A stretch of 64,000 bases of DNA from Desulfobacula toluolica Tol2 (GTDB lineage: Bacteria > Desulfobacterota > Desulfobacteria > Desulfobacterales > Desulfobacteraceae). The translations under genes and the position numbers were made by a program. Shown piece by piece: positions 1,986 through 22,568 of the stretch (its first letter is position 1; the number at the start of each line of letters is the position of its first letter). The notes below the pieces were generated by a model. The model did no database searches. It was not told the DNA's origin and saw only the letters and a list, made by a program, of their open reading frames with translations. The DNA is taken from the NCBI RefSeq assembly GCF_000307105.1, contig NC_018645.1, positions 1,066,578 to 1,130,577 of the forward strand, read 5' to 3'.

Positions 1986-2139
1986 CTTTGTGCTACAGAA
2001 TAAGCAATGAAAAGTCAAGCATATTTTCAGTGTGGCAACTTGTGTGGTTTTTATGAGTGTTTATATGTTGTTTTTAGTTCTTAATTGCAACCCAATGGTT
2101 ATTTTTTGCTGCAAGATGATGAATAATTACAGTATATCA

Positions 2140-2168: not shown

Positions 2169-2319
2169 GTAACTTGTTTGTTTTAAGGGAAAATAAACCG
2201 TTTAAAAAAACGGATTGATTGCAATATCAGATAGCCTGTTGGGTGCTGGTGCAGTCAAAGAGATGGGATGGATAGAAAATGAATCCATGAGTAAAAAAAA
2301 TCAACCTAAAGGAGAAAAA

Positions 2320-4338
2320 ATGAAAAATTTGAGCAGGCTCGGGGATTTTTATGTTTTGTTAATATTGTTAATATGCTTCAGTCCTTATTGCGCATGGGCA
2401 GAGGATACGGCTGGGGCGGACAAAAATGTTTTTGATCTTGGTGAGGTCGTTGTCAGTGGACAGGCTGAAACCATTACAAGGGTAAGTACAGTGGAAACAG
2501 TTGATTTGGAACAAATTGAACTGACCAATTCACAAAATATATCACAAGCTCTTTCCGGTTTGCCCGGTGTCACCTTGTCCAACGGAGGGAGAAAAGCGGA
2601 AAGCTCTATTAATGTCAGGGGATTTGGTTCTCGGTATGTCCCTATTTTTTATGACGGTATCCCCTTATACATTCCCAATGACGGATATGTGGACGCAGGT
2701 AACCTTACAACGGATAATATTTCAAGGATTGATTTGAGCAAAGGGGTCAGTTCCGTTCTCTACGGGTTTAATACCATGGGCGGGGTCATTAATATTGTGA
2801 GCCAAAAACCGCAGGAAAAATTAGAAGGTTCCTACGGGGTTGAAGTTACTGACAACAGTGATGTAAAAGGAAATTTTAATATTGGATCAAGCCAGGATAA
2901 ATTTTATTTTACCCTGGGAGGAGGGTTCACAAATTCCAATGGATGGGATGTGTCGGATGATTTTGATGCAAACCAGTATGAAGACGGAGACACAAGGGAG
3001 AACTCGGATCTTGATGACTGGAATGTGGCTGCAAAATTAGGGTGGACCCCGGCACAAGGCCATGAATATGCAATTGGATTCAACACCATTGAAAAGGAAA
3101 AAGGGCTTCCTCCCACTGCAGATCCCGATACATCGGCAAGAAGGGTAAAATACTGGCGGTTTACGGACTGGGACAAGGAAACCATTTATTTTATCGGGAA
3201 CACGGAGTTGACGGATCAATTATCCGTTAAAACAAGAGTGTTTTACGACACCTATTATAATGCGCTGGAAGACTATAGCGACAACACCTATTCAAATGCC
3301 CGCTGGCACTCCACCTATGACGACCACAGCTATGGAGGCTCTTTGGTGGCCAGAGTTGACTACATACCTAAAAACACTTTAAGCTGTTCTTTTCATTATA
3401 AAAAAGACGTTCATGAGGAACAAGATGACATAGGCGATCCATGGGAAAACTATGAACAGGAAATGGTTTCCTTTGGTATTGAAGATGATATTAAACTTAC
3501 GGATAATCTTGCCTTTGTTCTGGGAAGCAGTTATGACATCCAGAATCCCCAGAAAGCCAATGACGGTGTGAACAACGGGTTTGTCAGGGAATCCAAATCA
3601 GCCTTCAATCCCCAGGCAGGTGTGTTGCTGACGGTTCTTGAAGATCTTGACATGCATTTTTCCCTGGGGAAAAAATCAAGATGGCCCACCCTCCAGGAAC
3701 TTTATACAGATGGACTGGACAATGACAGAATAGCCAATCCCGACCTGGCAGAGGAAGTGGCAACCAATTATGAACTGGGTTTTGAAAAACCCCTTCCCAA
3801 AAATAATCGTATAGGGCTGACCTTTTTTTATTCCAAAGTTGAAGATTTAATTCAAGACGAGATTGTCGGTACTGATCCTGTTTCCGGGGATGATATCGAG
3901 CAATACCAGAATATTGATGAATCAAGTTTCAAAGGCCTTGAATTCACCTTCACCTCTTATATGATTGCCGATAATGATTTTCAACTGCATTATACATATC
4001 TGGATGCAAAAAATGAGTCTGACGGTGCAGATAACGATCATCTCGAGGGTATATCCGAGCATAAACTTTACCTGAGTGATTTGTACAGATTCAATGATCG
4101 GTTTTCCGTTTTCGGGAGTGCTGAATACAATTCAAAAAGATACGATGAGGATGCTAATTACGATGAGGTTGAACTTGACGGATTCTGGGTTGTAAATTTT
4201 AAAACCATGGTAAGGCTTGATCAATCTTTTGTGTTTGAAATCGGCGTTAAAAATCTTTTTGATGAAAATTATGAGATGGAAGTGGGATACCCCCGCCAGG
4301 GAAGAAGTTTTTTCATTGGATTTAAAGGAGAATTTTAA
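2320..4338 (+). CDS. TonB-dependent outer-membrane receptor (locus 1)
   Basis: A 672-residue receptor. ATG 2320 is chosen because AAAGGAG ends six bases upstream and a good signal peptide follows (ending CAWAED); an in-frame ATG at 2287 has no such site. Next come a TonB-box-like LGEVVVSGQAE, a plug with NVRGFGSRY and DGIPLYIPNDG, then VSSVLYGFNTMGGVINIVSQ, and a barrel ending GRSFFIGFKGEF with a terminal Phe. It is a paralogue of the receptor at 39046-41022 (shared features include YEDG.x.RENSD, a GLPP/GIPP loop and a GYPRxGR C-terminus). It is the first gene of locus 1 and presumably supplies the A and B importers. The ligand is inferred to be a metal chelate, possibly corrinoid-like. Confidence 0.93.
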   Translation: MKNLSRLGDFYVLLILLICFSPYCAWAEDTAGADKNVFDLGEVVVSGQAETITRVSTVETVDLEQIELTNSQNISQALSGLPGVTLSNGGRKAESSINVRGFGSRYVPIFYDGIPLYIPNDGYVDAGNLTTDNISRIDLSKGVSSVLYGFNTMGGVINIVSQKPQEKLEGSYGVEVTDNSDVKGNFNIGSSQDKFYFTLGGGFTNSNGWDVSDDFDANQYEDGDTRENSDLDDWNVAAKLGWTPAQGHEYAIGFNTIEKEKGLPPTADPDTSARRVKYWRFTDWDKETIYFIGNTELTDQLSVKTRVFYDTYYNALEDYSDNTYSNARWHSTYDDHSYGGSLVARVDYIPKNTLSCSFHYKKDVHEEQDDIGDPWENYEQEMVSFGIEDDIKLTDNLAFVLGSSYDIQNPQKANDGVNNGFVRESKSAFNPQAGVLLTVLEDLDMHFSLGKKSRWPTLQELYTDGLDNDRIANPDLAEEVATNYELGFEKPLPKNNRIGLTFFYSKVEDLIQDEIVGTDPVSGDDIEQYQNIDESSFKGLEFTFTSYMIADNDFQLHYTYLDAKNESDGADNDHLEGISEHKLYLSDLYRFNDRFSVFGSAEYNSKRYDEDANYDEVELDGFWVVNFKTMVRLDQSFVFEIGVKNLFDENYEMEVGYPRQGRSFFIGFKGEF

Positions 4339-4416: not shown

Positions 4417-5532
4417 ATGACAAAAAAAAGAATTTTTCTGCTTCTGTTTTCAGCATGTTTTGTTTTTTTATTTTACAGAATATATTATCATCCTGAAACC
4501 AGAGCCCGCGAAAATCATGATCGCACCCGCATTGTCACCGACATGAAAGGCCGCGCATTTCAAGTTGCAGATCCCATTAGGCGCATTGCACTGCTGGGTG
4601 GTCCCACAGGCCAGGTGGCTTTTATACTGGGGGTACAGGATCATTTGTGCGCCGTGACCAACACCCTTAAAATGTCAAAACTTGTCCAAGAAATGTATCC
4701 GGCCATCAAAGCATTGCCCGGTCCCAGGACCACTTCGGGCAATATCAATATAGAGGAATTGATCAATTCAAACCCGGATATCGCCATTGCAGGAGATATT
4801 GACGGTCAAATCGTGCTTGATAAAACCCGTATACCGGTTGCCTTTCTTGAAGACGGCATGGGCGAGGGCATGGAGGATATTAAAAGGGAAATCCGGTTTT
4901 ACGGAACCATTTTCCAAGCCCCGGACCGGGCTGAAAAATATGTTGCGTTTTTAGAACGGGTCATGCATCTGATAGAACAGAGAACCCGTGATATTCCGGT
5001 CCAAAAGAGGAAAAATGTTTTTCAGGGGTTCAGCCCCAGCCATCTTGTGACCCTGGGCGGAGATACCTTTATGCAGGAACGCATCAAGCTTTCCGGGTGT
5101 GAAAATGCCGCTGAAACCGTCACTACCATCGGCAAAAGAACCGGGCTGCATTCCGGCCTGGCCGAAGTCTCCATGGAACAGGTTCTGGAATGGGACCCGG
5201 ATATTCTGGTGATCAATTACGGAAAACCAGCCGACCTGTACAAAGATCCCCAGTGGAGAAATATCCGGGCGGTTCGAAATAAACAAATTTATTCCCAGCC
5301 GGCAGGTGTTTTTATTTTCAACCGCCCCACGGCGGAATCTGCCGTGATTTTCCCCTTGTGGCTGGCCGCCATTGCTTATCCCGACCTGTTTGAAAATATT
5401 TCCATTAACGGTATTGTCAAAACTTTTTACCGGGAAATTTTTGATTTTGACCTTACAGACCTTCAGGTTCATGATATATTGCTGGGCACTTATGAATTCA
5501 AGATGATGAAAGGAATTAAAAATAGAGGATAA
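4417..5532 (+). CDS. Periplasmic chelate-binding protein of importer A (BtuF/FecB-like)
   Basis: A 371-residue protein with an N-terminal hydrophobic segment (FLLLFSACFVFLFY) that acts as signal or membrane anchor; there is no lipobox Cys. The rest is a two-lobe TroA-type fold: DMKGRAFQVADPIRRIA, then NINIEELINSNPDIAIAG in the N-lobe and VLEWDPDILVINYG in the C-lobe. It belongs to the same subfamily as the protein at 35297-36364 (shared INIEEL/INIEAL and similar C-termini). No strong ribosome-binding site is visible before ATG 4417. The next gene encodes the cognate permease. Confidence 0.88.
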   Translation: MTKKRIFLLLFSACFVFLFYRIYYHPETRARENHDRTRIVTDMKGRAFQVADPIRRIALLGGPTGQVAFILGVQDHLCAVTNTLKMSKLVQEMYPAIKALPGPRTTSGNINIEELINSNPDIAIAGDIDGQIVLDKTRIPVAFLEDGMGEGMEDIKREIRFYGTIFQAPDRAEKYVAFLERVMHLIEQRTRDIPVQKRKNVFQGFSPSHLVTLGGDTFMQERIKLSGCENAAETVTTIGKRTGLHSGLAEVSMEQVLEWDPDILVINYGKPADLYKDPQWRNIRAVRNKQIYSQPAGVFIFNRPTAESAVIFPLWLAAIAYPDLFENISINGIVKTFYREIFDFDLTDLQVHDILLGTYEFKMMKGIKNRG

Positions 5533-5611: not shown

Positions 5612-6565
5612 GTGGTTTTGTTTTCCTTAAGCCTTGGCCGGGTGGATATTTCCTGTATGACAGTGCTGAAAATTTTGTTTTCATCTGTTTTTCCCCTGGA
5701 ACCGGACTGGTCCGTGACAACCTATGCCGTTGTCATTGATGTCAGACTGCCCAGAATCCTGGCAGGCATTCTTGTGGGAGCCGCTTTGTCCATATCCGGT
5801 GCATCCTTTCAAGGGGTGTTCCAGAATCCCCTGGTAAGCCCCCATATCCTGGGGGTGGCGTCCGGTGCAGGGTTTGGCGCAGCTCTGGCCATTCTTTTGT
5901 TTGACAATATATTGATGATTCATCTGGTGTCTTTTTTCTTCGGTCTTTTGTCCGTGGGCATGACCTATTCCCTGTCAAGAGTCTACAAGATTACCCCGAT
6001 CCTTATGCTGGTGCTTTCCGGCATTGTGGTGGGATCTCTTTTTTCCGCATTGACCTCTTTTTTAAAATATATTGCCGATCCCATGAACAAAATGCCTGCC
6101 ATTGTTTTCTGGCTGCTGGGTTCTTTAAATCATGTTTCGTCAAAAGATTTGTTGATTACGGCACCGGTTTTTATTGTCTGTATTTCAGCCCTGCTCATGG
6201 TGCGCTGGAGGATCAATCTTCTGGCCATGGGAGAGGAGGATGCAAAATCCCTGGGCGTCAACACGGAAACCTTAAAAGCCGTCATCATTGTCAGCGCCAC
6301 AATTGCCACGGCATCAGCAGTGTGCATCAGCGGAATCATCGGCTGGATAGGCATCATGATCCCCCATATCGGCCGTTTGATTGTGGGGCCCGACCATAAA
6401 TATCTTTTGCCTGTGTCCATGCTGATCGGTGCCGCTTATCTTGTGGCAGTTGATACCATTGCAAGAACAGCTCTTGTGACGGAAATCCCAATTGGCATTC
6501 TGACGGCTATTTTTGGTGCCCCTGTGTTTGCCTTTTTACTTCGAAAAAGTCAGAAAGCGGATTGA
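5612..6565 (+). CDS. FecCD/BtuC-type permease of importer A
   Basis: An integral membrane permease of the BtuC/FecCD family with hallmark stretches DVRLPRILAGILVGAALSISG, FQNPLVSPHILG, GAGFGAALAI, GIIGWIGIMIPHIGR and EIPIGILTAIFGAPVF; about nine to ten helices. The start is uncertain. GTG 5612 falls inside the expected first helix. The frame is open back to 5510 without ATG, GTG or TTG, and AAAGGA lies seven bases before an ATA at 5522, so an ATA start giving about 30 more residues is possible. It is closest in the window to the permease at 37203-38222. Confidence 0.88.
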   Translation: MVLFSLSLGRVDISCMTVLKILFSSVFPLEPDWSVTTYAVVIDVRLPRILAGILVGAALSISGASFQGVFQNPLVSPHILGVASGAGFGAALAILLFDNILMIHLVSFFFGLLSVGMTYSLSRVYKITPILMLVLSGIVVGSLFSALTSFLKYIADPMNKMPAIVFWLLGSLNHVSSKDLLITAPVFIVCISALLMVRWRINLLAMGEEDAKSLGVNTETLKAVIIVSATIATASAVCISGIIGWIGIMIPHIGRLIVGPDHKYLLPVSMLIGAAYLVAVDTIARTALVTEIPIGILTAIFGAPVFAFLLRKSQKAD

Positions 6566-6568: not shown

Positions 6569-7411
6569 ATGACAGGTCGGGTAAACATCAGCAATCTTTG
6601 TTTCGGGTATACGGGCAGGGAAAAAGACCTGGTATTTTCAAAGATCAGTTTTGATCTGGAACAAGGAGAAGTGTTTTGTCTTCTCGGGCCCAATGGCTCG
6701 GGAAAGTCCACCCTGCTCAAATGCATGGCACGGCTGCTGAACCCACTTGAAGGCAGTGTTTGCCTTGACGGTGAAAACTTGAACACTCTGGGTGCCGGGA
6801 AAATCGCCCGAAAGATCGGGTTTGTCCCCCAGAGTCTTGTTTGTGTTTTTCCGTTCACTGTGGAAGATATAGTGATCATGGGACGGGCATCCAGGATCGG
6901 CATGATCTCTTCTCCTTCCAAAACAGACCGGCGCAAGGCGTTTGAATCAATGGAAAGGATCGGGATTTCCCATCTGGCCAAAAGGCCATGCAACCGGCTG
7001 TCGGGCGGGGAGTGGCAGCTGGTATTGATTGCAAGGGCTCTGACCCAGTCGCCCGGGGTGCTGCTTTTGGATGAACCCACCTCCCACCTGGACCTGGGCA
7101 ACCAGATAAAAATTTTAGAGGTGGTGGACAGTCTTGCAAAAGAGGGCATCACCATTATCATGGCATCCCATTTCCCGGATCATGCCTTTTTGAATGCTGA
7201 TAAGGTTGGAATTCTAAAGGATCGTACCATGATTGCCCTGGGAGATCCAAACAAGGTGTTGTCTGAAGATGTTCTTGAAATAACGTATGGCATCACCATA
7301 AAAATCGTCACAATAGATGAAGGGATTAATCGAAAAATCTGCGTCCCGGTTTTAAATCAGAAGAAAACAAAACAACAGGTGAAAAATGGAAGCATTGACG
7401 GATTGGTATAA
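6569..7411 (+). CDS. ABC transporter ATPase of importer A (BtuD/FecE-like)
   Basis: A 280-residue nucleotide-binding subunit. It has Walker A LLGPNGSGKST near residue 40, Q-loop VPQSL, signature LSGGEWQL, Walker B VLLLDEPTSHLDL and the switch His in ASHFPDHAF. The HFPxHAF switch region is shared with the ATPase at 36361-37179 and differs from the HDPN of the B-type ATPases, so the two types can be told apart. It starts three bases after the permease stop and energises that permease at the inner membrane. Confidence 0.93.
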   Translation: MTGRVNISNLCFGYTGREKDLVFSKISFDLEQGEVFCLLGPNGSGKSTLLKCMARLLNPLEGSVCLDGENLNTLGAGKIARKIGFVPQSLVCVFPFTVEDIVIMGRASRIGMISSPSKTDRRKAFESMERIGISHLAKRPCNRLSGGEWQLVLIARALTQSPGVLLLDEPTSHLDLGNQIKILEVVDSLAKEGITIIMASHFPDHAFLNADKVGILKDRTMIALGDPNKVLSEDVLEITYGITIKIVTIDEGINRKICVPVLNQKKTKQQVKNGSIDGLV

Positions 7412-8219
7412 ATTGTGGAATCAGCTTTGTGAGATTCAGAACAAGGCCTTTGGCAGAAAAAAGGAATACTCGGAGGATGACTTCTGGAAGCACAAGGCAA
7501 GGCATTTTGATAAAATGGTGGATGAAAGATGGGAAAAGCCGGATTCGTCCAGGGATTTTCTGATTCAAAAATTAAAGGACAATCCAGGCGCAACCTTGCT
7601 GGATATCGGTGCAGGCACCGGCAAATGGTCCCTTCTTGTTTCCCCTTATGCGGCAAAAGTCACGGCATTGGACCCTTCGTTGGCCATGCAGGAGATTTTG
7701 AAGGAAAAGATTCAAAAACAGGGGATTAACAATATTGATATTGTCACCGGGACTTGGCCCAGGGATTATGTGGCATCCCATGATTTTGTCCTGGCATCTC
7801 ATTCCATGTATGGTGTGCCTGATTTTAAAGCCTTTGCAGACAAAATGTCGGCCACGGCAACCAAAGCCTGTATTATGCTGCTGCGGGCGCCTTTTGCTGA
7901 TTCCGTAATGGCAATAGCCTCCCGTTATGTTTTGGGGCAGCCGTATGACAGCCCGAACTTTCAGGTTGCCTATAATGCCCTTCTGGGCATGGATATTTAT
8001 CCTGACGTGATCATGGAAGCTGCGGGCACCTGGCCTGCCTGGACACATGATTCTTTTGAAGAGGCCCTGGACGATTTGAAGAATCGTCTGAATATTTGTG
8101 AGACATCACAATATGATGATTTCCTTTCAGATTTGCTGGAAAAACATCTTATTTTGAAAGACTGTAAATTTGTCTGGCCGTCCGGAAACCGCTCAGCCCT
8201 TGTGTACTGGGAGGTGTGA
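7386..8219 (+). CDS. Class I SAM-dependent methyltransferase
   Basis: A 277-residue cytosolic protein. Glycine-rich motif I is LLDIGAGTGKWSLLV near residue 67, with the acidic end of beta-2 in VTALDPSLAM, so the SAM-binding fold is clear. The acceptor substrate is not recognisable. It overlaps the importer A ATPase by 26 bases and the following lipoprotein gene by one base, so it is translationally coupled into the importer operon. That placement suggests methylation of the imported chelate or of an uptake cofactor, which is inference. A second methyltransferase gene lies at 14194. Confidence 0.85.
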   Translation: MEALTDWYKLWNQLCEIQNKAFGRKKEYSEDDFWKHKARHFDKMVDERWEKPDSSRDFLIQKLKDNPGATLLDIGAGTGKWSLLVSPYAAKVTALDPSLAMQEILKEKIQKQGINNIDIVTGTWPRDYVASHDFVLASHSMYGVPDFKAFADKMSATATKACIMLLRAPFADSVMAIASRYVLGQPYDSPNFQVAYNALLGMDIYPDVIMEAAGTWPAWTHDSFEEALDDLKNRLNICETSQYDDFLSDLLEKHLILKDCKFVWPSGNRSALVYWEV

Positions 8220-9250
8220 TGGCTGCCGTTAAATTTTTCAGGAGCCTTATTATCTGTGTGTTTGTGTTCGGTTCTGTTGCAGGGTGTGATTTTTCAGGCA
8301 AAGCCCAAAAGGATTTTATCACCATCACGGATCAAATTGGCCGCAAGGTTAAGATTCCGTCACAGATCAAACGAATGGCCGCCTTTCACCATTTTGGCGG
8401 CAAACTCGTCTATGCCTTGAATCAGCAGCACCTGCTGGTTGAAAAAAGTATCTACGGCAGGGAGGCCCTGGCATTGAACAGGATTGATAAAGCCTTTGCC
8501 GCTCTGCCAAATATGGCACAGGGGCACGGTTATAATATTGAAAGTCTGGTCAGCCTGAATCCCGACGTCGTTTTTTTATATGCATCCAGCGACCAGGGCG
8601 AGATAGAACAGTTTGAAAATGCCGGTATCCCGGTTATCGGCGTAAAAGGTGAGACCTTTGAAGAAAGCTTTGAGGCGATCCGACTGATGGCCGACGTCCT
8701 GAAATGCCGGGATCAGGGGGAAGTTTATATTCAAGAGTGCAATCGTCTTATCGAGCTGGTTCGGGTGAGGCTGGAGCAACATGGGGCACCCCCTTTGAAT
8801 GTCATGTTTTCAGGACCCAAAAGCATTTATTCCGTGGCCACGGGCAATATGCTTCAAAACCGGATTCTGGAACTTTCCGGTGCCAGAAACGTGGCTGCCG
8901 GATTAAAAGGTTTTTGGGCTGATGTGTCACCCGAGCAGATTGCAAAATGGAATCCTGATGTTGTGTTTTTAGGCTCATCCTTTGATGCTTACGGCAAAGA
9001 CAAAATTTTTAAAAATTCTCATTTCCAGACCGTCAAAGCTATTAAAGAGAAAAAAGTCTTTTCATTTCCTTCCGAAATCGGGTGGTGGGATTACCCGGCT
9101 CCCCATTGTGTACTGGGGGTGGTCTGGTCTGCTAAAACTCTTTACCCGGAACTTTTTTCAGATATTGACATGATGATGGTTGCCAACCGGTTTTATAAAA
9201 AATTTATGGGGTATACCTTTGAAGAGCTGGGGGGCAGGCTGGAGCAATGA
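8219..9250 (+). CDS. Chelate-binding lipoprotein of importer B (BtuF-like)
   Basis: A 343-residue binding protein with a lipoprotein signal; the lipobox SVAGC puts the acylated Cys at residue 23. ATG 8219 is preferred over GTG 8216 because GGGAGG lies at better spacing; it overlaps the methyltransferase stop (ATGA-type junction). The two-lobe fold shows NIESLVSLNPDVVFLY, SVATGNMLQNRILELSGARN and SPEQIAKWNPDVVFLG. The TGNMLQN and SPEQxxKWNPD stretches are shared with the protein at 41498-42616, which defines the B type. The following permease gene overlaps its stop. Confidence 0.9.
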   Translation: MAAVKFFRSLIICVFVFGSVAGCDFSGKAQKDFITITDQIGRKVKIPSQIKRMAAFHHFGGKLVYALNQQHLLVEKSIYGREALALNRIDKAFAALPNMAQGHGYNIESLVSLNPDVVFLYASSDQGEIEQFENAGIPVIGVKGETFEESFEAIRLMADVLKCRDQGEVYIQECNRLIELVRVRLEQHGAPPLNVMFSGPKSIYSVATGNMLQNRILELSGARNVAAGLKGFWADVSPEQIAKWNPDVVFLGSSFDAYGKDKIFKNSHFQTVKAIKEKKVFSFPSEIGWWDYPAPHCVLGVVWSAKTLYPELFSDIDMMMVANRFYKKFMGYTFEELGGRLEQ

Positions 9251-10269
9251 AAAAGTTTGGTCTCATGATCCTGGTTTTCCTGGTGACAGTGTTTATCTGT
9301 CTGTGTACCGGACGCTATCCCATAAGTCCCGGGCATGTTGTTGGACTGCTTTTGTCGGGCGCTGGAATTGAAAGCCATGGCTTTGCTGCTCCGCCGGAAA
9401 TGATGATGATTTTCTGGAACATCAGGGTGCCCAGAATCCTTCTCAGCATTATGATCGGTGCCGGGATTTCCATTTCAGGGGCCGTGTTCCAGGCGCTTTT
9501 CAGGAATCCCCTGGCCGCACCGGATATTCTGGGGGTGACGGCTGGCTCCTGTTTTGGTGCGGCCCTGGCCATCATGTTTTTAACTCCTCTTGCCTGGGTC
9601 ATCCAAACCAGTGCCTTTATATTCGGTATTGTAGCGGTGACGCTTGCCTATATCCTGGCGTCCTGGAGCCGGGACAGTTCTCCCTCGGTACTTGTGATTT
9701 CCGGGATTGTCATTTCAGCCGTATTCCAGGCAGGACTTTCCTTTATAATGTACCTTGCCAATCCATATGACCAGATGGCACAGATCGTATTCTGGATCAT
9801 GGGCAGTTTCCATATGGCGTCCTGGACCAAGGTTCAGGTGACCCTTCCGGTTCTGGTTCCAGGTATTTTTTTGATGACGATTTTTTCCTGGCGCCTGAAC
9901 ATCATGACTCAGGGAGAAGAAGATGTATTGTCCATGGGAATCAATATTTTTCGGTGGCGGATTTTTTATGTCCTGGTCAGCACGCTTATGGTGGCCTGTG
10001 CCGTGGCATCCGTGGGAACGGTTGCCTGGATCGGGCTGATTGTACCTCACATTGCAAGATACCTGGCCGGAGCGGAACATAGCAGGCTGATTCCTGTTAC
10101 GGCGGTTTTAGGCGGGGTTTTCCTCATGGTCATGGACAGCGTTGCCAGAAGTGTCATGCTGTCTGAAATTCCTATCAGCATTGTCACATCCATATTTGGC
10201 GCACCCTTTTTAGGTTATCTGGTTATCAGTGCCGGTCAAGCGAGGTTTGGACATGAATCTGGCCGTTGA
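9247..10269 (+). CDS. FecCD/BtuC-type permease of importer B
   Basis: A 340-residue polytopic permease. Family signatures are IRVPRILLSIMIGAGISISG, FRNPLAAPDILGVTAG, VAWIGLIVPHIARYL and EIPISIVTSIFGAPFLGYL, with about ten predicted helices. It starts with an ATGA overlap on the lipoprotein stop. The C-terminal part (AEHSRLIPVTAVLGG, SVARSV) is closest to the permease at 42622-43647, matching the B-type pairing of the binding proteins and ATPases. Confidence 0.92.
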   Translation: MKKFGLMILVFLVTVFICLCTGRYPISPGHVVGLLLSGAGIESHGFAAPPEMMMIFWNIRVPRILLSIMIGAGISISGAVFQALFRNPLAAPDILGVTAGSCFGAALAIMFLTPLAWVIQTSAFIFGIVAVTLAYILASWSRDSSPSVLVISGIVISAVFQAGLSFIMYLANPYDQMAQIVFWIMGSFHMASWTKVQVTLPVLVPGIFLMTIFSWRLNIMTQGEEDVLSMGINIFRWRIFYVLVSTLMVACAVASVGTVAWIGLIVPHIARYLAGAEHSRLIPVTAVLGGVFLMVMDSVARSVMLSEIPISIVTSIFGAPFLGYLVISAGQARFGHESGR

Positions 10270-11065
10270 AAATATCAGCGCAGGATACGGGAAAACCCAG
10301 GTGATTTCTAACATCAACCTGGCTGTCGGGCCGGGCAGGATCTGTGCCCTCATGGGCAGAAACGGATCAGGGAAAACCACATTGTTACGCTGTATTAACG
10401 GAGTTATCTCCCCGTTTGAAGGCAAGGTTTCGATCATGGGCAAGGATATTTGCAGGCTTTCCCGGGACCGGATTGCCGGGATGATCAGCGTGGTTCCCCA
10501 GGTAAGCTTTTCTCCATTTTCCTTTTCCTGCATGGATATGGTGCTTATGGCCGGGGCGTCACGGATCAAGGCATGGTCAGCCCCGTCAAAAAAAGACAGG
10601 GAAAAGGCTTTTTCAGTGATGGCTGAAGCAGGTATCGATCATATGGCCGACAGTGCTTTTAATTCCATATCCGGCGGCGAACGCCAGCTGGTCATGCTGG
10701 CAAGGGGGCTGTTCCAGGACACGCCGGTTATGCTCCTGGACGAACCCAATTCCCACCTTGATTTTACCAACCAGCACAGAATCATGGCTCTGATGCAGAC
10801 GCTTGTGAAAAAAAGGAAGACAACGGTTTTAATCACCCTGCATGATCCCAATCTGGTCTATTATTATTGTGATGAAGTGGTCCTTCTTCACAATGGCGGT
10901 GTGGTGGCTTCAGGAGAAACCCGGACGACCATGACGGATGATGTTCTGTCCAGGGTGCTGGGAGACAATATCCAGTGTGATGTCACCCTGAAAGGTGTTT
11001 TTGTAGTTACCCCGAAACAGATAAATTCCCCAAATAATAACTCCGGTATAAAGGTGAAGATATGA
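10253..11065 (+). CDS. ABC transporter ATPase of importer B
   Basis: A 270-residue ATPase. Walker A is LMGRNGSGKTTLL, the signature ISGGERQLVML, Walker B MLLDEPNSHLDF, and the switch region TLHDPN. ATG 10253 is preferred to an upstream in-frame GTG (10229) because GAGG sits seven bases before it; the gene begins inside the permease gene. The HDPN switch motif is shared with the B-type ATPase at 43638. A C-terminal extension of about 40 residues after the core resembles other FecE/BtuD-like subunits. Confidence 0.92.
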   Translation: MNLAVENISAGYGKTQVISNINLAVGPGRICALMGRNGSGKTTLLRCINGVISPFEGKVSIMGKDICRLSRDRIAGMISVVPQVSFSPFSFSCMDMVLMAGASRIKAWSAPSKKDREKAFSVMAEAGIDHMADSAFNSISGGERQLVMLARGLFQDTPVMLLDEPNSHLDFTNQHRIMALMQTLVKKRKTTVLITLHDPNLVYYYCDEVVLLHNGGVVASGETRTTMTDDVLSRVLGDNIQCDVTLKGVFVVTPKQINSPNNNSGIKVKI

Positions 11066-12108
11066 AATGCAATTTTTGTGAACGCAGATGTGACCTTACG
11101 GCAGGCAAAAGCTTTTGCGGTATGTACAGAGAAGATGGGGGCCGGGTGGTTGAAACCTATCCTGATAAATGGTGTACCTATTTTGTATCCCGGGTTGAAT
11201 CTGTCCCGTTTTACCATGCCTATCCAGGTTCCCGGTCTATGATCATCGGGACGGCCGGCTGCAATTTTCGTTGCAGGTACTGTTCCAACGGATTTATTGC
11301 CTGCCGTAACCCTGCCGATGTCCAGGATGTGATGTATGAATTTTCCCCTGAAAAACTGGTGGCCATGGCTCAAAAGCTTGGATGCCACAATATTGTTTTC
11401 AATGTAAATGAACCGGCTGTGTCTCTGCCAAGTCTTTTGCGGGTAAAAGCGTATGCCAAAAAAGCGGGTATACCCATGGGATGTCTGACCAATGGGTATA
11501 CCACGCAAGAGTCCACCCGGATGATGGCGGATATTTTTTCTTTTGTTCATGTGGGCCTCAAGGGATTTTCCAATGCATTTTATAAAAAATATGTGGGAGT
11601 GGACAGCATTGAGCCTATTCTTCGCAATATAAAATTTTTTGCAGACCATTGCCATTTGGAGATTGCCTCTCCTGTGATCGAAGATGTCAATGATCATGAA
11701 TTATTTGATATTGCAACATTTATTCATGATATTCATCCCCATATCCCCTGGCATGTGTTCAGGCTTTTGCCGGAGCATAATATGAAGGGTTCGGTGTATC
11801 CGAATATCGAACGGATGAACCAGGCCCTTGAATCTTCCAGAAATCTGTTGCCTTATGTCTATTTTCATAATTTTGTGGGGTCTGACTGGGTTAACACTCT
11901 TTGTCCCAATTGCGGTGCAACAGTTATTAAACGGTTCAGTCTGGGATGTTCCGGGGACCAGCTGGATGAATTTTTAGCCCCTGACAACACCTGCATAAAT
12001 TGCTGCACAAAGATTGCCATGCTGGGCACCAAGGTGGCCTGGGATGAAAAAAGCGGTAATATAAAAAGCGGGGATGCAAAAAACCATACGGTAAAGGAGG
12101 TGGGTTAA
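11062..12108 (+). CDS. Radical SAM protein with N-terminal Cys motif
   Basis: A 348-residue cytosolic iron-sulfur enzyme. The radical SAM CxxxCxxC motif is C67, C71, C74 (GCNFRCRYC). Before it is a Cys motif C3, C6, C10, C19, as in proteins related to pyruvate-formate-lyase activase and the AmmeMemoRadiSam group. A second Cys group lies near the C-terminus (LCPNCG and TCINCC), perhaps for another cluster. It overlaps the importer B ATPase by four bases. The reaction cannot be deduced. The position suggests a step acting on what importers A/B bring in. It is a relative of the N-terminal part of the protein at 14853. Confidence 0.88.
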   Translation: MKCNFCERRCDLTAGKSFCGMYREDGGRVVETYPDKWCTYFVSRVESVPFYHAYPGSRSMIIGTAGCNFRCRYCSNGFIACRNPADVQDVMYEFSPEKLVAMAQKLGCHNIVFNVNEPAVSLPSLLRVKAYAKKAGIPMGCLTNGYTTQESTRMMADIFSFVHVGLKGFSNAFYKKYVGVDSIEPILRNIKFFADHCHLEIASPVIEDVNDHELFDIATFIHDIHPHIPWHVFRLLPEHNMKGSVYPNIERMNQALESSRNLLPYVYFHNFVGSDWVNTLCPNCGATVIKRFSLGCSGDQLDEFLAPDNTCINCCTKIAMLGTKVAWDEKSGNIKSGDAKNHTVKEVG

Positions 12109-13289: not shown

Positions 13290-13937
13290 ATGATAAAAAG
13301 ATTTTATATGTTATTTTTTGTTGTTCTTTTTTTTGCCGGTATCACCTGGGCATTTGACGGAGACAAAGAAAAGCTCATCACACTCGAAAAGAGAATCGCG
13401 TCGTACTCCATAAATAATTCCTTTAAAGACGATTTGTTCGGTCTGGCCGTTGTGAAAAATGCTCTTGTGTCAATTCAAGAAGGCTCCGGCGGCATCGGGG
13501 CCTGTCTTGTGGACAGTTCAACCGGCAAGGTTGTGGAATATGGCCGTAACCGCCAGTATACGACTTATTTTCGCAGTGATCTTCATGCTGAAATGGATCT
13601 TCTTAACAGGTATGAAGACAGGGTGCAAAAAAAACGGACATCAAATAAAGATAACACTCCCAGGGACTGTAAAGATCTTGTTTTGATTACTTCGGTGGAA
13701 CCCTGTCCCATGTGCCTGACACGAATCATCAATTCGGGAATCAAAACAGTTCTTTATGTGGTGGAAGACAAACAGGGGGGGATGGCGACGCGCATTGACA
13801 GCCTGCCGCCGTTCTGGCGCAAGTTTGCTGCTGACCGGGAATTCAGACAAGCAGACTGTTCGCCGGAAATCAGGAAAATCGCCCATGACCTGTTTCATTT
13901 TTCTCATAGAAACTTTGTTGGAAAAAGAGTAAAGTAA
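13290..13937 (+). CDS. Exported zinc-dependent deaminase (CMP/dCMP deaminase fold)
   Basis: 215 residues with a Sec signal peptide (residues 1-21, ending GITWA). The cytidine/deoxycytidylate-deaminase-like active site is intact: HAE at 99-101 (zinc ligand His and catalytic Glu) and PCPMC with C139 and C142. Family members deaminate bases or nucleosides, usually in the cytosol, so a signal peptide is unusual. GGAG lies upstream of ATG 13290. The context is an uptake operon, which raises the possibility that it acts on a nucleotide-like part of a periplasmic ligand (for example a lower-ligand base). That is speculation; the substrate is unknown. Confidence 0.82.
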   Translation: MIKRFYMLFFVVLFFAGITWAFDGDKEKLITLEKRIASYSINNSFKDDLFGLAVVKNALVSIQEGSGGIGACLVDSSTGKVVEYGRNRQYTTYFRSDLHAEMDLLNRYEDRVQKKRTSNKDNTPRDCKDLVLITSVEPCPMCLTRIINSGIKTVLYVVEDKQGGMATRIDSLPPFWRKFAADREFRQADCSPEIRKIAHDLFHFSHRNFVGKRVK

Positions 13938-14022: not shown

Positions 14023-14193
14023 ATGTGTGATTGCAATTGCCAACACCCGGAAAAACTCAAAGACAAACCTGAAAACTGTACGCCCCAACAGGTAGAAGAA
14101 TGCCATGGGAAAACAGGTGACCATCCCTGCACCTGCCATTCCGAATCAGGAAAAAAAATCAGCAGCAAAATGCCGGATAAAAAGGAAGATTAA
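14023..14193 (+). CDS. Small Cys-rich protein
   Basis: 56 residues; ATG 14023 is supported by AAGGAG seven bases upstream. It begins MCDCNCQHPE and contains CTPQQVEECHG followed by GDHPCTCH; seven Cys and three His in all suggest metal binding. Short proteins with an ECHG...HPC pattern are seen in anaerobes, but I know of no assigned function. It ends directly against the next methyltransferase gene and may be an accessory metal-handling or regulatory peptide. Confidence 0.72.
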   Translation: MCDCNCQHPEKLKDKPENCTPQQVEECHGKTGDHPCTCHSESGKKISSKMPDKKED

Positions 14194-14847
14194 ATGACGA
14201 CCGAGAATCCATACAAAGATGATACAGAAGATCGTAAAGCTGCCAGAGCAATGGATGAGATTGTCAAAACCGTGTTTGCACCTATTTATCCGTTGATTGC
14301 CGAACAGATCAAATCCAAACACGGCATTGTCACCGGCAACTGCATTGATCTTGGCAGCGGCCCTGCAGCCCTGTCCATTGCTCTTGCCAGGATTACGGAT
14401 CTGAACCTGTATGCCCTGGATCAGTCAGTACACAGCTATGCCATTGCAACTGCCAATATTGAAGAACAGGGCCTGGCTGAAAGGATTACCCCGGTGAGAG
14501 GAAATGTAGAAGACATGCCTTTTGATGATAATTATGCCGATCTTATTGTTTCCAGGGGTTCTGTTTTTTTCTGGGAAGATCTGAAAGCTGCGTTTAACGA
14601 AATTTACAGGGTACTTAAACCCGGCGGGAAAACTCATATAGGCGGCGGATTTGGCTCTGCTGAACTGAAAAAATCCATTTTCATGGAAATGGCCAAAAAA
14701 GATGGTGAGTTTGCTCAAAAAAGCAAAGGCCGGATGAATCCTGAAAATATGAAAAGGATTAAAACCGCCCTGAACAACTCCCATGCGTCTCAATATGACA
14801 TGACACAGTCGGATGCTGGATTCTGGATTCACATTACAAAGGAGTAA
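14194..14847 (+). CDS. Class I SAM-dependent methyltransferase (UbiE/type 11-like)
   Basis: 217 residues. Motif I is CIDLGSGPAALSIAL near residue 51, motif II LYALDQSV, then NVEDMPFDDNYADLIVS and a post-motif IYRVLKPGGKTHIGG, typical of type 11 methyltransferases. The acceptor is unknown. It starts immediately after the Cys-rich gene stop, with a ribosome site AAGGA in that gene's end, and is followed five bases later by the radical SAM fusion. Its pairing with a radical SAM enzyme suggests modification of a cofactor or chelate. Confidence 0.87.
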   Translation: MTTENPYKDDTEDRKAARAMDEIVKTVFAPIYPLIAEQIKSKHGIVTGNCIDLGSGPAALSIALARITDLNLYALDQSVHSYAIATANIEEQGLAERITPVRGNVEDMPFDDNYADLIVSRGSVFFWEDLKAAFNEIYRVLKPGGKTHIGGGFGSAELKKSIFMEMAKKDGEFAQKSKGRMNPENMKRIKTALNNSHASQYDMTQSDAGFWIHITKE

Positions 14848-14852: not shown

Positions 14853-16589
14853 ATGAAATGCCCTGTTTGTGAACTGGGGTGTAATATTAAAGAAGGGGAA
14901 TACGGCCGGTGCCGGATGATGACCAACCGGGACGATGCCATTGAAGAACGTTTTGCCGACCGCTATTCCACCTTGTTTCCCATTTCTATTGAGACCATGC
15001 CCACCCTGCATTTCTACCCCAGGCATAAATTTTTGCAGGTGTCTTCCATTGGCTGCAATTTTTCCTGTCCCGGATGTATTTCCGAGGTCCTGACCATGGG
15101 AACGGAAACCATCTGTGCTGCATTGAAACATTTGCCGCCTGAAAAGGTCATTGCAAAGGCCATCAAAGAAAACTGCAAGGGCATTGCCTTTTGCATCAAT
15201 GATCCCACCGTATCTTTTTTCACCTTTCTTAAGCTTGCAAAGGCGGCGAAAAAAAAGGGCCTTCTGGTGGGATTTTCAACCAACGGTTATTTTACCCGAG
15301 ACGCGCTTGAGCAGCTTATTGAGTTTACTGATTTTGTCAATATCGGTTTCAAAGGGTTTTGTGACGACCGGTATAAATCCTGCGGGGTGAGTTCATCCGC
15401 ACCTGTTTTCAGGAATTTAACCCACCTGTTTGAGGCGGGTGTCCATGTGGAAGCTGCAGCCATTCATATGAAGGGATATGAGGACGAAGTCAGGCAGATT
15501 GCACGGTTTGTGGAATCATTGTCAGCAGATATTCCTTTCCAGGTGATGCGTTTTGTGCCCTTTGGAGAGGCGGATATTGAATTTGAACCCACCATCCGGG
15601 AATCCGAGGCTCTGTGCCTGGATCTGAAACAACAATTGAACCATGTATATTTGTTCAATTGTCCTGGTACTGAGCTGCTGAACACATGCTGCCCGGACTG
15701 TGGCACAACTGTGATCACCCGGGAATTTTTCGGCCCAATGGGCTCCAGGATCATTAAAACCCTGCCGGATGCGATCTGCCAATGTGGCCGGCAGCCTGTT
15801 ATCAAAGGAGATATCGCACAACTGCGGTATGATGAACACGGTTTTTTCGGGGGATACCGTACGACCAGGGCATTTGAAATGCTGCATGCCATAATGGTCT
15901 GCATTGGTGCTGATGACCCTGAAAAGGTATCCCGATTATGGTTTGATCTTTTTGAATCAAACTATCTTAAAGAATTTCATGAGACCGTACAGCTGCCGGG
16001 AGAATATGGGAATATTATTGACCGGCTGTCGCAAAAAACCGATTGTGTTGAAACCGGCAACCGGCTCAAACAGACCATCAACACAACCCTGGATTTGATC
16101 TCCTCAAAAACCCGTGATGTTGAACGGCCAACCGTATATTATGCAATGGGATACCCTTTGTTTGCCCTGAATGCGGAACGCTTTGAAACCAACCTTGTGG
16201 AGGCTGCCGGGGGCAACTGCCTGAACAAACGCCTGACCCGGAAAGGCAAACCCGGCGTGACCATCACCCGTGAGGAATTAATGGCATGGAACCCGGATAT
16301 TATTTTTATTTCAGGTTTTTTGTCCTGTCCTGCGTCTGATTTTTATGACTATTGCATCAAGCATGATATTCGGGTAAGCGCAGTTGAAAACAACCGGATA
16401 TATGACCATTTCCCGCTGTGGGATTTTGGCAGCCCTCGGTGGATGCTGGGGTTGATGTACATTGCCAATACGCTTCACCCCCAAATTTTTAATTTTGATA
16501 TGGAAAAAGAAGCCAATCGGTTTTATACTGCATTTTTTAATCGACCCTTTGATGCAAAAAAAGCCAACAGATCTTTTTACAGGGTCTGA
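14853..16589 (+). CDS. Radical SAM enzyme fused to a periplasmic-binding-protein-like lobe
   Basis: 578 residues. The N-terminal half parallels the radical SAM protein at 11062: Cys motif C3, C6, C10, C20, then the cluster motif C68, C72, C75 (GCNFSCPGC), and CCPDCG later. Residues about 425-578 are like the C-lobe of BtuF/TroA binding proteins: RFETNLVEAAGGNCL, ELMAWNPDIIFISG, WDFGSPRWMLGLMYIANTL, HPQIFNFDMEKEANRFY. The last part matches the ends of the B-type binding proteins (WDYPAPHCVLGVVWSAKTL; WDFPSPLSVLASLWIAQKI). There is no signal peptide, so this lobe sits in the cytosol. I infer that it recognises the imported ligand for the radical SAM reaction. The start is fixed by AAGGAG upstream of ATG 14853. 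Confidence 0.85.
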   Translation: MKCPVCELGCNIKEGEYGRCRMMTNRDDAIEERFADRYSTLFPISIETMPTLHFYPRHKFLQVSSIGCNFSCPGCISEVLTMGTETICAALKHLPPEKVIAKAIKENCKGIAFCINDPTVSFFTFLKLAKAAKKKGLLVGFSTNGYFTRDALEQLIEFTDFVNIGFKGFCDDRYKSCGVSSSAPVFRNLTHLFEAGVHVEAAAIHMKGYEDEVRQIARFVESLSADIPFQVMRFVPFGEADIEFEPTIRESEALCLDLKQQLNHVYLFNCPGTELLNTCCPDCGTTVITREFFGPMGSRIIKTLPDAICQCGRQPVIKGDIAQLRYDEHGFFGGYRTTRAFEMLHAIMVCIGADDPEKVSRLWFDLFESNYLKEFHETVQLPGEYGNIIDRLSQKTDCVETGNRLKQTINTTLDLISSKTRDVERPTVYYAMGYPLFALNAERFETNLVEAAGGNCLNKRLTRKGKPGVTITREELMAWNPDIIFISGFLSCPASDFYDYCIKHDIRVSAVENNRIYDHFPLWDFGSPRWMLGLMYIANTLHPQIFNFDMEKEANRFYTAFFNRPFDAKKANRSFYRV

Positions 16590-16645
16590 CTTATATCTGA
16601 AACTTATGTATGATAAAGGGTCTGATAACCATAGAGAGGCATGTT

Positions 16646-17371
16646 ATGACCGATATTTATACCCAGTTGAAAAATCGCGCCCAAACCTTATGGGAACCTG
16701 AAAATCTGCTCAATGAAAAAATCGTGATCACGGCCAGGGCCTTGTCAACCCAGGAAGCCATTGGAAATCCTGAAGATGATGATTACCCCATCCAGAAGGG
16801 AAATGAAAAACTGATGCAGGCTGAATTCAAAGGTTCGTGCGGCCAGGCATTCACAGATCATTTCGGTAATTTTGAAGGCACTTTAAAAGATATCCTTGAT
16901 ATGCCTCTTACCAATAATTTTCAAAAAGCCGTTTTTATATCCGCTTTGAATGCTGTTTTAAGGTTTCAGGGAAAAGCTGATAAAACCATTCATTGCCATG
17001 ATGAGGAACCTGTGGCCTGTGCCGTAAAACTTGTTGCCTATATCCGGGAACACTACGGGGATGTGAAAATAACCCAGATCGGATTTCAACCGAGAATGGC
17101 CCAGCACCTGGTCCCTGTTTTTCCTTTGCGCTTGATTGATCTTGACCCGGAGAATATCGGGCAGAAAAAACAGGGAGTACTGATCGAAGGAGCTGATGCC
17201 ACGGATGACGCCATTGACTGGTGCGATCTTCTCCTGGTCACCGGCACCACGGTTGCCAACGGCTCCATTGAATTGTTTTTAAACCGCAAACCCATTTTGT
17301 TTTACGGCACAACCATTGCCGGGGCTGCCGAACTCATGGGATGGGACAGGTTCTGCCTTAAAGCCACCTGA
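16646..17371 (+). CDS. DUF4213/DUF364-family protein (putative heavy-metal chelation)
   Basis: 241 residues. ATG 16646 is preferred over an upstream in-frame start because GAGAGG lies just before it. N-terminal portion YPIQKGNEKLMQAEFKGSCG resembles the DUF4213 domain; the second half (KITQIGFQPRMAQHLV, DLDPENIG, WCDLLLVTGTTVANGSIE, ILFYGTTIAGAAELMGWDRFC) resembles DUF364, described in domain databases as a putative heavy-metal chelation domain. It is the last gene of the operon and is followed by a terminator. Function is unproven; the position supports metal-ligand handling. Confidence 0.85.
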   Translation: MTDIYTQLKNRAQTLWEPENLLNEKIVITARALSTQEAIGNPEDDDYPIQKGNEKLMQAEFKGSCGQAFTDHFGNFEGTLKDILDMPLTNNFQKAVFISALNAVLRFQGKADKTIHCHDEEPVACAVKLVAYIREHYGDVKITQIGFQPRMAQHLVPVFPLRLIDLDPENIGQKKQGVLIEGADATDDAIDWCDLLLVTGTTVANGSIELFLNRKPILFYGTTIAGAAELMGWDRFCLKAT

Positions 17372-17521: not shown

Positions 17522-17545
17522 CGCTATGTCAAATTTGACATAACA
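17522..17545. promoter_or_regulatory. Inverted-repeat operator upstream of formate dehydrogenase 1
   Basis: CGCTATGTCA, AATT-containing centre, TGACATAACA; the inner 18 bases (17525-17542) are a perfect palindrome. It lies just after the -10 element and covers the probable transcription start, a repressor position. A matching copy is at 22545-22568. The outer C-G-n-T-A-T / A-T-A-A-C-r pattern recalls ModE-type molybdate/tungstate sites, which would suit a Mo/W enzyme, but the regulator is not identified. Confidence 0.65.
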
Positions 17546-17574
17546 CTAAGCAATGAAATAATATGGAGAAGCTC

Positions 17575-20346
17575 ATGATAAGCGGCGGCATTGTTTTAAA
17601 TGGCAGGGAATACCCATTTAAGAAGGGGCAAACCATTCTGGATGTGGCAAGGCAGAATCGGATTGATATTCCGACCCTTTGTTATTTCAAAGGCGTTGTG
17701 TCCAAAGGTTCTTGCAATATCTGCGTGGTGGAAGTAAAAGGTGTCAAAGATCTTGTGCCGGCTTGCAGCACAGAAATTATGGGCAGGATGGATATTCGGA
17801 CCGAATCTCCCCGTGTGGTGGCTGCCAGGAAAAAAACATTGAAGGCCATTCTTGAGTCCGGTAATCACAATTGCAGTATCGGTGCTTCCCAGGGAGATTC
17901 CTGGACCCGGTTTCAACTGGACGTAATGCAGATGGAAAATCATCATGAGCTTTGTCCCAAATGGGGGGATTGTGAACTCCAGGATCTGGCCTATCGCTAC
18001 CAGGTTCAATGGAATCGCACCTCTCTTTCAGATTGCAGGTTTCCCAGGGAAACGGTTAATCCACTGATCATAAGGGATTTTTCCAGATGTATTTTGTGCG
18101 GCAGGTGTGTGGCAGCGTGCAATGATATCCAGGTCAACCAGGCTATACGAATGCCCAAACAAACGGAAAATCAGCGGATTATTGCCGGTATGGACGATGT
18201 GGCCTTGAAAGATTCGGATTGTGTTTTTTGTGGAGAGTGTGTTCAGGCATGTCCGGTTGGAGCGCTGGTGGAAAAAAAAATCGAGCATCAATGGCGGCCC
18301 TGGGAAATTGAAAAAATCAGGACAACCTGTCCATATTGTGGTGTGGGGTGTCAGCTCTGGCTTCATGTCAAGGAAGATAAAATTCTCAAGGTGACTGGAG
18401 TGGAAGATGCCGCTCCCAATAAGGGAAGGCTGTGTGTAAAGGGGCGGTTTGGATTTGATTTTATTTATTCACAAGAAAGACTGACAACTCCCTTGATCAA
18501 AAAAAATGGCGCATTTCAACAAGCATCCTGGGATGAAGCCCTGGACCTTGTGGCTGAAAAATTCAAGACAATTATCAGAGAAAGCGGGCCCGATGCCCTG
18601 GCAGGCGTTTCCTGCGCCAGGAGCATTAATGAAGATTCCTATCAAATGCAAAAACTGTTTCGGGCCGTGTTCAAGACCAATAATATCGACCATTGCGCCC
18701 GCACCTGACATGCTCCAACGGTTGCCGGGCTGGCAACCACATTTGGTTCAGGCGCAATGACCAACTCGTTTTCAGAATTTGCCAGGGCAAAAATGATCCT
18801 GGTGATAGGGTCCAATATGACACAGGCCCATCCGGTTGCAGCGACTTTTGTGAAAAATGCCGTGCAGAACGGAGCCGGGCTTATTGTGGTGGATCCCAGG
18901 AAACACAGGTTGACGGATTTTGCCGATATTCACCTCCAGTTGAAGGTGGGAAGTGACATTGCCCTGCTGAACGGGATTATGCATGTATTGATCAAAGAAG
19001 AGCTTTACGACAAAGAGTTCTCTTTGAACAAGTGTACGGGATTTGAAGACCTTGAAAAGACTGTGGCCCAATATTCTCCTGATAAAGCGGCCCGGATCAG
19101 CGGAGTGGATGAAGACACAATTATTCAAACCGCGCGGCTTCTGGCATCTGTCAAACCGGCCATGGTCTGCTACACACTTGGCATCACAGAGCATACCTGC
19201 GGGAAAAACAATGTCATGACCGTTGCCAACCTGCAGATGCTTCTGGGAAACATGGGTATGGAACTTGGCGGGGTAAATCCTTTAAGGGGGCAGAACAATG
19301 TCCAGGGTGCCTGTGATATGGGGGCTTTGCCCAATGTTTTTCACGGGTATCAGAATGTGGCTGATCCCAATGCACGCCAAAAATTTGAAACTGCATGGCA
19401 GGTTACAAATCTGCCTGAAAAGCCGGGGCTTATGATTCCCCAGATGATGCATGGCCTGACAAATGGATCAGTTAGGGCATTTTATATATTCGGAGAAAAT
19501 CTTGCCAATACGGAACCGGATATGAACAAGGTGGCAAAAGAGCTGGAAGCCGCAGAATTTACAGTATGCCAGGATTTGTTCCTGACGGAAACCACGCGGT
19601 TTGCCGATGTGGTTTTACCGGCAGCTGCCTGGAGCGAGAACAACGGAACATTTACTAACAGTGAGCGCCGGGTGAGCCGGGTTCGAACCGCCGGCCGGCC
19701 GCCAGGACTTGCCAGACCCAACTGGTGGATTTTTAAACAGATTGCCAAAAGGTTCGGCCATGACTGGTCTGCATCAAGCGCCAGGGAAATATGGGACAAA
19801 GAAATCAGTCCTCTTGCCCCGGCTCTGGAGGGTATCAAATACCACAGGATCGGCCGGGACGGTCTTCAATGGCCTTGTCCCACACTTGACCATCCGGGTA
19901 CGCCATACCTTCATCAGGACGGTAATTTTACCCATGGCAAAGGTGTTTTTATGCCGACGCAATGGACCCCGCCGGCCGAAGTCCCGGATGAGGAATATCC
20001 CTTTGTTCTGAGTACGGGCAGACGGCTTTATCATTACCACACAAGGACCCAGACCGGCAGGTGTGAAGGATTAAACGACCTTCTGGGTGAAGAAACAGCC
20101 GATATTTCACAGGCAGATGCCGATAGAATGGGAATTGCCCCGGGTGAACGGATAAGGGTCCGATCCAGGCGGGGCGAGGTGTGTGTATCTGCCAATGTTA
20201 CCCATGAAGTCCCCCTGGGAATGGTCTGGATGGCTTTTCATTTTACCGAAGGCAATGCCAACTGGTTAACCAACTCTGCCCTGGACCCGTCTACCTTGAC
20301 GGCGGAATACAAGGCCTGTGCAGTTCAGTTAGAGAAGATATTGTAA
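17575..20346 (+). CDS. fdhA: Selenocysteine formate dehydrogenase, ferredoxin-domain type
   Basis: The gene reads through TGA at 18706-18708 as selenocysteine (residue 378 of 923); the flanks CART-Sec-HAPTVAGLA are the formate dehydrogenase active site. Domain order: [2Fe-2S] domain (CYFKGVVSKGSCNICVVE, about 30-75); a His/Cys [4Fe-4S] segment like NuoG; two ferredoxin motifs CILCGRCVAAC and CVFCGECVQACPVG; then TCPYCGVGCQ for the catalytic-subunit cluster; then the bis-MGD domains. It oxidises formate or reduces CO2 in the cytosol. The N-terminal clusters resemble NAD(H)-linked or bifurcating enzymes, but no partner subunit is adjacent. ATG 17575 is preferred to 17563 because GGAG lies six bases upstream. 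Confidence 0.93.
18706..18738 (+). promoter_or_regulatory. Bacterial SECIS element of formate dehydrogenase 1
   Basis: Following the UGA, GGTTGCC (18720-18726) pairs with GGCAACC (18732-18738) around the loop GGGCT. The loop starts 18 bases after the UGA, within the known bacterial SECIS range, and carries G at its start as required for SelB binding. Confidence 0.88.
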
Positions 20347-22544: not shown

Positions 22545-22568
22545 CGTTATGTCATGATTGATATAACG
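22545..22568. promoter_or_regulatory. Inverted-repeat operator upstream of formate dehydrogenase 2
   Basis: CGTTATGTCA and TGATATAACG half-sites with a four-base centre, matching the element at 17522-17545 at most positions. It lies directly downstream of the -10 element of the reverse-strand promoter and 18 bases before the start codon. Confidence 0.65.

Follow-up and report, generated by a model that had tools for sequence, protein, structure and literature searches.

What would a radical SAM enzyme do with half of a transporter binding protein? The question is raised by a gene fusion in Desulfobacula toluolica Tol2, encoded among importer genes in a stretch of 64,000 nucleotides that is referred to here as the window (Table 1).

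Results

Architecture of the fusion protein

An earlier note on this DNA had read the gene as a radical SAM enzyme with the C-lobe of a binding protein, and profile comparison of the two halves confirms that reading. The N-terminal half belongs to the Radical_SAM family (PF04055, residues 66-220, 49.9 bits against a cut-off of 29.5, with the CX3CX2C motif), and of the 36 members of the family 34-35 keep the cluster cysteines C68, C72 and C75, two being broken at the N-terminus. The top curated radical SAM model is TIGR04337, which scores 122.4 bits over residues 1-294, under its cut-off of 220, and structure comparison of the predicted model shows this half to be pyruvate formate-lyase (PFL)-activase-like by fold.

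The second half is matched by Peripla_BP_2 (PF01497) at residues 383-518 with 20.4 bits, under the cut-off of 27.5, and aligns to neighbouring binding proteins with an hhalign E-value of 4e-26. The TroA-type lobe expected in the C-terminal part was found both in the structure model and by profile comparison, which gave no BtuF match before residue 379-380. The predicted model contains no strand of 3 or more between residues 303 and 427; the helices at 335-378 are without a strand and the N-lobe sheet is therefore absent. Thus, of the features that define class III binding proteins, the fusion possesses the backbone helix and the C-lobe fold and lacks the two alpha/beta lobes with an export signal. 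The protein starts with MKCPVCELGC and by eye has no signal-like start, as the note had stated. Among solved relatives of the C-terminal part alone, 4hn9 is best (6.4e-10) and MolA, 3psa, reaches 1.1e-4; with a family profile of the same part these improve to 2.4e-16 and 9e-8, and MolA is also among the nearest folds when the model is compared with known structures. An assembly or frameshift artefact as the source of the fusion is ruled out by full-length orthologs in other genomes. Selenocysteine was considered and rejected, the TGA in one relative (L113) having the appearance of frame loss.

Positions conserved in at least 95% of 31 fusions were set against 28 binding proteins. G453, P481, A510 and P543 are common to 31/31 fusions and 28/28 binding proteins and represent the scaffold. 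Meanwhile, E445, N458, P467, G468 and W530 are present in 31/31 fusions and C501 in 30/31; one binding protein shares G468 and none has any of the other five. The fusion-specific residues mean either that the ligand surface has been rebuilt or that the lobe docks onto the radical SAM barrel and, since they differ from those of the importer's own binding proteins, the lobe need not bind the same ligand. Its conservation pattern shows a lobe in use, with part of the surface rewritten. The note had called it a cytosolic copy of a transporter lobe: a class III lobe without an export signal it is, but with six residues replaced it is no simple copy.

Distribution and phylogeny

Genome contigs were searched with five close relatives, and 79 loci were drawn from the best 80 of 89 confirmed matches. 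In 18 of these loci (L021-L038) the match extends to residue 549 or beyond, identifying a fusion; in the other 61 it stops by residue 342. The 18 fusion loci come from Desulfobacula, other Desulfobacteraceae, Desulfospira, Methanohalophilus, Methanoculleus and other Methanomicrobiales, plus MAGs of Methanosarcinaceae, Deferribacteraceae and Spirochaetes. A scan of the order (389 genomes, 1e-60) gave 26 genomes with a match, 22 of which reach the lobe (own genome included) and 4 of which are N-terminal only. The equivalent scan of the phylum (395 genomes) gave 11, with 3 N-terminal only and 8 full length, the latter including the own genome, one genome already counted and one match with an internal TAG. 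The search for radical SAM proteins with the same C-terminal domain, which the note had suggested, therefore yielded many, in bacteria and archaea alike.

In a tree of the lobe, 31 fusions lie on one side of a branch and 36 binding proteins on the other, with branch support of 100/100 and in all 200 bootstraps; the tree omits L151, L157 and L159 (wrong frame or strand) and three near-duplicate fusions, has long own-genome branches, and is unsure as to which binding-protein group is nearest to the fusions, the cluster's own binding protein being one candidate for the direct ancestor of the lobe. In a tree of the radical SAM half, which took in 30 of the 61 N-terminal-only loci and one own-genome protein and left out 7 of 36 fusions (two broken, five near-duplicates), 29 fusions form a clade with an SH-aLRT of 99 by a quick method. 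The stand-alone radical SAM protein encoded at 11062 and its four orthologs are placed next to the fusions, whereas 31 AmmeMemoRadiSam-like proteins stand apart. Because the fusions group together in both trees, the simplest reading is that a single fusion event gave rise to this old, conserved family of anaerobic bacteria and archaea.

Some genomes contain two different fusion genes: in L132 they lie at 4510 and 15361 of one cluster, and further pairs are found in G274, G323 and G369. A second, broken copy with several stops (G012:C248) is located on a separate contig from the other copy in its genome.

Gene neighbourhood

The fusion gene clusters with BtuF, FecCD, ATPase and TonB-receptor genes (Table 1), and it is therefore likely to be tied to an imported ligand, which partly supports the note's idea that the lobe may hold that ligand for a radical SAM reaction. 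Each of the two formate dehydrogenase genes (by eye) that follow has its in-frame TGA where the catalytic Cys/Sec would be encoded (DHCART-TGA-H and DHCARL-TGA-H), so the enzymes are probably selenoproteins.

Table 1. Features of the fusion gene and its surroundings, in window coordinates
Feature	Position	Strand	Evidence or remark
TonB-dependent receptor, heads cluster	2215..4338	+	hemin 178, siderophore 155, B12 144 bits, all below cut-off
BtuF-like binding protein, first transporter set	4417..5532	+	profile match
FecCD permease, first transporter set	5612..6565	+	profile match
ABC ATPase, first transporter set	6569..7411	+	clustering and eye
Second methyltransferase family	7386..8219	+	profile match
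BtuF-like binding protein	8216..9250	+	MolA (3psa, 3.2e-32) is second-best solved relative
FecCD-type permease	9247..10269	+	clustering and eye
ABC ATPase	10229..11065	+	clustering and eye
Stand-alone radical SAM protein	11062..12108	+	with four orthologs, group nearest the radical SAM half of the fusion
387-aa protein	12109-13272	+	no Pfam/NCBIfam match up to E 0.1; cluster members in 7 sources
Deaminase-fold protein (PF00383), signal-like start by eye	13290-13937	+	profile match
Small Cys/His-rich ORF, 56 aa, MCDCNCQHPEK...	14023-14193	+	between deaminase and methyltransferase
Class I methyltransferase, conserved partner	14194..14847	+	profile match
Fusion gene: radical SAM domain, helices, class III binding-protein backbone helix and C-lobe	14853..16589	+	578 aa
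CX3CX2C radical SAM cluster motif (C68, C72, C75)	15054..15077	+	read from sequence
Second Cys set (C280, C283, C309, C311), zinc-ribbon-like by eye	15690..15785	+	conserved in 35-36/36
Helices 335-378, after conserved GGY (333-335)	15855..15986	+	inside the range structurally aligned to binding proteins
Backbone helix and C-lobe, BtuF/MolA-type, residues 379-575	15987..16577	+	profile and structure comparison
DUF364 protein ('putative heavy-metal chelation')	16610..17371	+	28.6 bits, cut-off 23; sole match in genome
ModE-like palindrome	17522..17545	+	ends 17 bases before the formate dehydrogenase (by eye) after DUF364
Formate dehydrogenase (by eye)	17563-20346	+	one in-frame TGA
Formate dehydrogenase (by eye)	20488-22527	-	one in-frame TGA
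ModE-like palindrome	22545..22568	+	17 bases before the second, minus-strand formate dehydrogenase (by eye)

The ORFs of 39 sources were clustered and the neighbourhoods of the fusion's relatives compared, as the note had also proposed: importer genes recur, and a methyltransferase adjoins most fusions. BtuF-like, FecCD and ATPase genes are all recurrent, as are three clusters of TonB receptors, and a TonB/ExbB/ExbD set is present in L133-L136. For 30 of 37 fusion genes a class I methyltransferase gene is found on the same strand at a distance of at most 300 bases, sometimes before and sometimes after the fusion, a count that includes near-identical loci and excludes L038 and L145 (not single frames) and the duplicate L126; the seven without this partner are in L024, L031, L033, L132 (first copy), L137, L139 and L140. 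The minimal operon, in the Methanohalophilus locus L025, consists of BtuF, methyltransferase, fusion, FecCD and ATPase, and several methanogen loci have no recurrent genes beyond the methyltransferase and the fusion. The small Cys-rich ORF was rejected as a general partner or precursor peptide, being found among the scanned loci only in the window, L022 and L023.

Elsewhere in the window, another FecCD/BtuF/TonB-receptor set contains a gene (38230-38979, minus strand) whose product weakly resembles TiaS/methanogenesis marker 11 (36.9 bits, cut-off 255.8), and CRISPR-cas genes, cas3-like to cas1 by eye, occupy 46809-53969 on the plus strand.

Molybdenum and tungsten context

When regulator consensus strings were run on 34 operon heads, ModE was singled out with 4/34 regions, and the Zur and NikR strings gave no match on the same 34 heads. 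The ModE-like palindrome was refined to CGNTATRT-N8-AYATANCG, with 14 fixed positions, and used only at a threshold of at least 13; at 12/14 the result is unconvincing (13 sites, against 6-13 in simple shuffles and a Markov mean of 3.25, largest 7). At 13/14 or better there are 9 sites in 35 loci (724,767 bases) and 0 in 20 Markov simulations. Seven of the nine head a fusion operon (L025, L026, L036, L032, L144 and, with two boxes, L143) and the remaining two precede the formate dehydrogenases in the window. A box thus lies ahead of the fusion operon in 6/35 loci, and since three of the six, from Methanohalophilus, are close kin, these amount to about four independent cases. The window's own fusion operon has no box at this threshold and is one of 29/35 loci without, in a few of which the available DNA begins inside the operon. 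The box covers the opening codons of the longest frame in L025, L026, L036 and L032, where translation therefore probably begins further downstream.

Outside the fusion loci, the own genome also has a box next to two genes resembling ModE by eye (L173) and two further sites, and in G406, one of the genomes with a boxed locus, a one-mismatch box (1421636-1421659) is located upstream of a modA match (1420737-1421396, minus strand). One-mismatch sites in four whole genomes, against those of the reversed pattern, number 5 vs 3, 1 vs 2, 9 vs 3 and 2 vs 1; the counts are barely above the reversed pattern except in G558, so single one-mismatch matches mean little. In G558, one-mismatch boxes precede two TonB-dependent receptor genes (by eye; L170, L174) elsewhere in the genome than the fusion, a hint of a broader Mo/W regulon with a TonB link.

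Gene content gives a further line of evidence. Beside the fusion, ModA and ModC are over cut-off in L142, ModC in L140, and ModB in L031 together with a WtpC-like ATPase (428 bits, cut-off 440). HTH-PBP_like proteins occur near the fusion in L132, L140 and L142 (one identified by a scan and the others from clustering), and the last two of these loci also have CobW-like GTPases. Of 26 genomes, 10 have DUF364 no more than 25 kb from a fusion (expected 0.44), only 3 have modA within 10 kb (expected 0.22) and 3 have HTH-PBP_like regulators within 10 kb (expected 0.11). These counts come from hand-picked rows (40 of 41 DUF364, one under cut-off being dropped; 46 modA over cut-off; 22 PBP_like of the HTH-bearing size class), and related genomes and contig ends make the resulting probabilities too sharp. 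Furthermore, for three binding proteins of fusion loci MolA ranks within the top three solved relatives; MolA is described as the molybdate/tungstate binder of a Type II importer (PMC4031551), and the DUF364 structure paper reports iron, tungstate, vanadium and molybdate transport in the genome context of its protein (PMC2954201). A link between the fusion and molybdenum or tungsten is considered probable. The note took BtuF as the pattern for the lobe, but the comparative context points to these metals and a B12-type ligand is not favoured.

Discussion

A model for the fusion enzyme

The reading preferred here, tentatively and with slightly less than even confidence, is that the fusion is a cytosolic radical SAM enzyme in a Mo/W acquisition system of anaerobes, where it would process an imported Mo/W complex. 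The genes of the cluster suggest a route. An organic Mo/W complex would enter through the TonB-dependent receptor, where an outer membrane exists, and would then be carried by the BtuF/MolA-like binding protein and the FecCD-type ABC importer. In the cytosol the fused C-lobe, having lost the sheet of its partner lobe, would present the complex to the radical SAM barrel, which would stand where the missing lobe had been. A radical reaction, with the neighbouring methyltransferase taking part, may then cut or alter the chelator and free the metal, which could pass to the pterin cofactor of enzymes like the formate dehydrogenases of the adjacent genes. Chelate-opening chemistry by the fusion is possible, if still somewhat doubtful. 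The fullest form of the proposal, that bacterial and archaeal anaerobes share a dedicated uptake of organic Mo/W complexes in which one protein both grips a metallophore and opens it by radical chemistry, the barrel standing in for the lost lobe, is on balance unlikely.

Alternative explanations

The radical SAM enzyme and methyltransferase might instead be makers, building a metal-binding cofactor or metallophore whose product or intermediate is held by the lobe and which the importer returns once loaded. Together with DUF364, which has been proposed to act on pterin-, flavin- or siderophore-like compounds (PMC2954201), they do resemble a small biosynthetic set. However, neither an exporter nor an enzyme for making building blocks was recognised among those recurring clusters of the 39 sources that were inspected, and several methanogen loci have just the methyltransferase and the fusion as recurrent genes; a biosynthetic role is judged unlikely.

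A second alternative is an iron system, with a siderophore or heme as ligand and anaerobic release of iron by the enzyme in the manner of HutW/HmuW for heme. Radical SAM metal release is known for heme (PMC10404700, PMC10035031), and several TonB receptors match hemin and siderophore models best. The receptors scanned reached no curated subtype, though: some match hemin, siderophore and B12 models alike, some siderophore or B12 alone, and two match nothing at 1e-15. A Fur-box scan with a crude consensus rose above shuffles at only one of 34 operon heads (L127, 13/19, shuffles at most 12). Iron would not account for the mod genes, the ModE-like boxes or the PBP_like regulators, and the radical SAM half is PFL-activase-like by fold. 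An iron system is accordingly improbable.

The lobe could also be a regulatory or docking piece that senses a metal or complex, dimerises the enzyme or binds the methyltransferase, and presents no substrate. Its fusion-specific invariant residues stand where the binding proteins' own would be, and cytosolic sensor domains resembling binding proteins (PF12727 with HTH) are encoded nearby, but the high conservation of whole loop regions and the coupling to importer genes in many loci make this decidedly improbable.

At the edge of the fusion cluster lies a cobalamin riboswitch (116 bits, window 1815-1991, minus strand). It faces an AraC-type regulator (719-1699, minus strand), beyond which is a TonB receptor by eye (1-525, minus strand), and the TonB receptor that heads the fusion cluster lies back to back with this unit. 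A corrinoid system, in which the enzyme would remodel or de-ligate an imported cobamide, has this riboswitch and the BtuF fold of the C-lobe in its favour, but it is the least probable alternative, as the riboswitch points away from the cluster and, among the matches listed, none is closer than 30 kb to a fusion in the 24 further genomes searched and none occurs in the seven fusion loci scanned, leaving it unsupported as a trait of the family.

Significance and comparison with known systems

Titles and abstract starts in the open-licence literature gave no description of a radical SAM enzyme joined to a binding-protein lobe. To our knowledge, how sulfate reducers and methanogens gather molybdenum and tungsten from sulfidic waters is poorly understood, and no TonB-linked Mo/W system with a defined cytosolic step is known to us from anaerobes. 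The fusion offers a single, widely conserved gene through which Mo/W acquisition by anaerobes can be addressed, and is an example of how an enzyme can take in a transport lobe. Presentation of a chelate to the radical centre by the lobe, if it occurs, would be a new way of releasing metal.

Several known systems come close to the fusion. The AmmeMemoRadiSam radical SAM proteins (TIGR04337) share the CX3CX2C motif and, by eye, the N-terminal and second Cys sets, but they form a separate clade and have no binding-protein lobe, and the fusion scores under their cut-off. Pyruvate formate-lyase activating enzyme (3c8f) is like the radical SAM half in fold; it is not known to have a C-terminal lobe or a transport operon. 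On the transport side, the BtuF/IsdE/CeuE class III proteins (PF01497) share the backbone helix and C-lobe, whereas the fusion lacks their N-lobe sheet and export signal and has other invariant residues, and MolA of Haemophilus influenzae MolBC-A (3psa) differs in being two-lobed, periplasmic and not an enzyme. The heme degraders ChuW/HutW/HmuW resemble the proposal in idea, being anaerobic radical SAM enzymes of uptake operons that free a metal, and no half binding protein is known to us in any of them. Finally, a neighbour of one fusion matches NCBIfam PRK14498, a family linked to MoeA. MoeA-type proteins with a PBP_like domain (PF12727) differ from the fusion in both the type of binding-protein fold and the enzyme, but they too join a cytosolic binding-protein-like domain to an enzyme of molybdenum metabolism.
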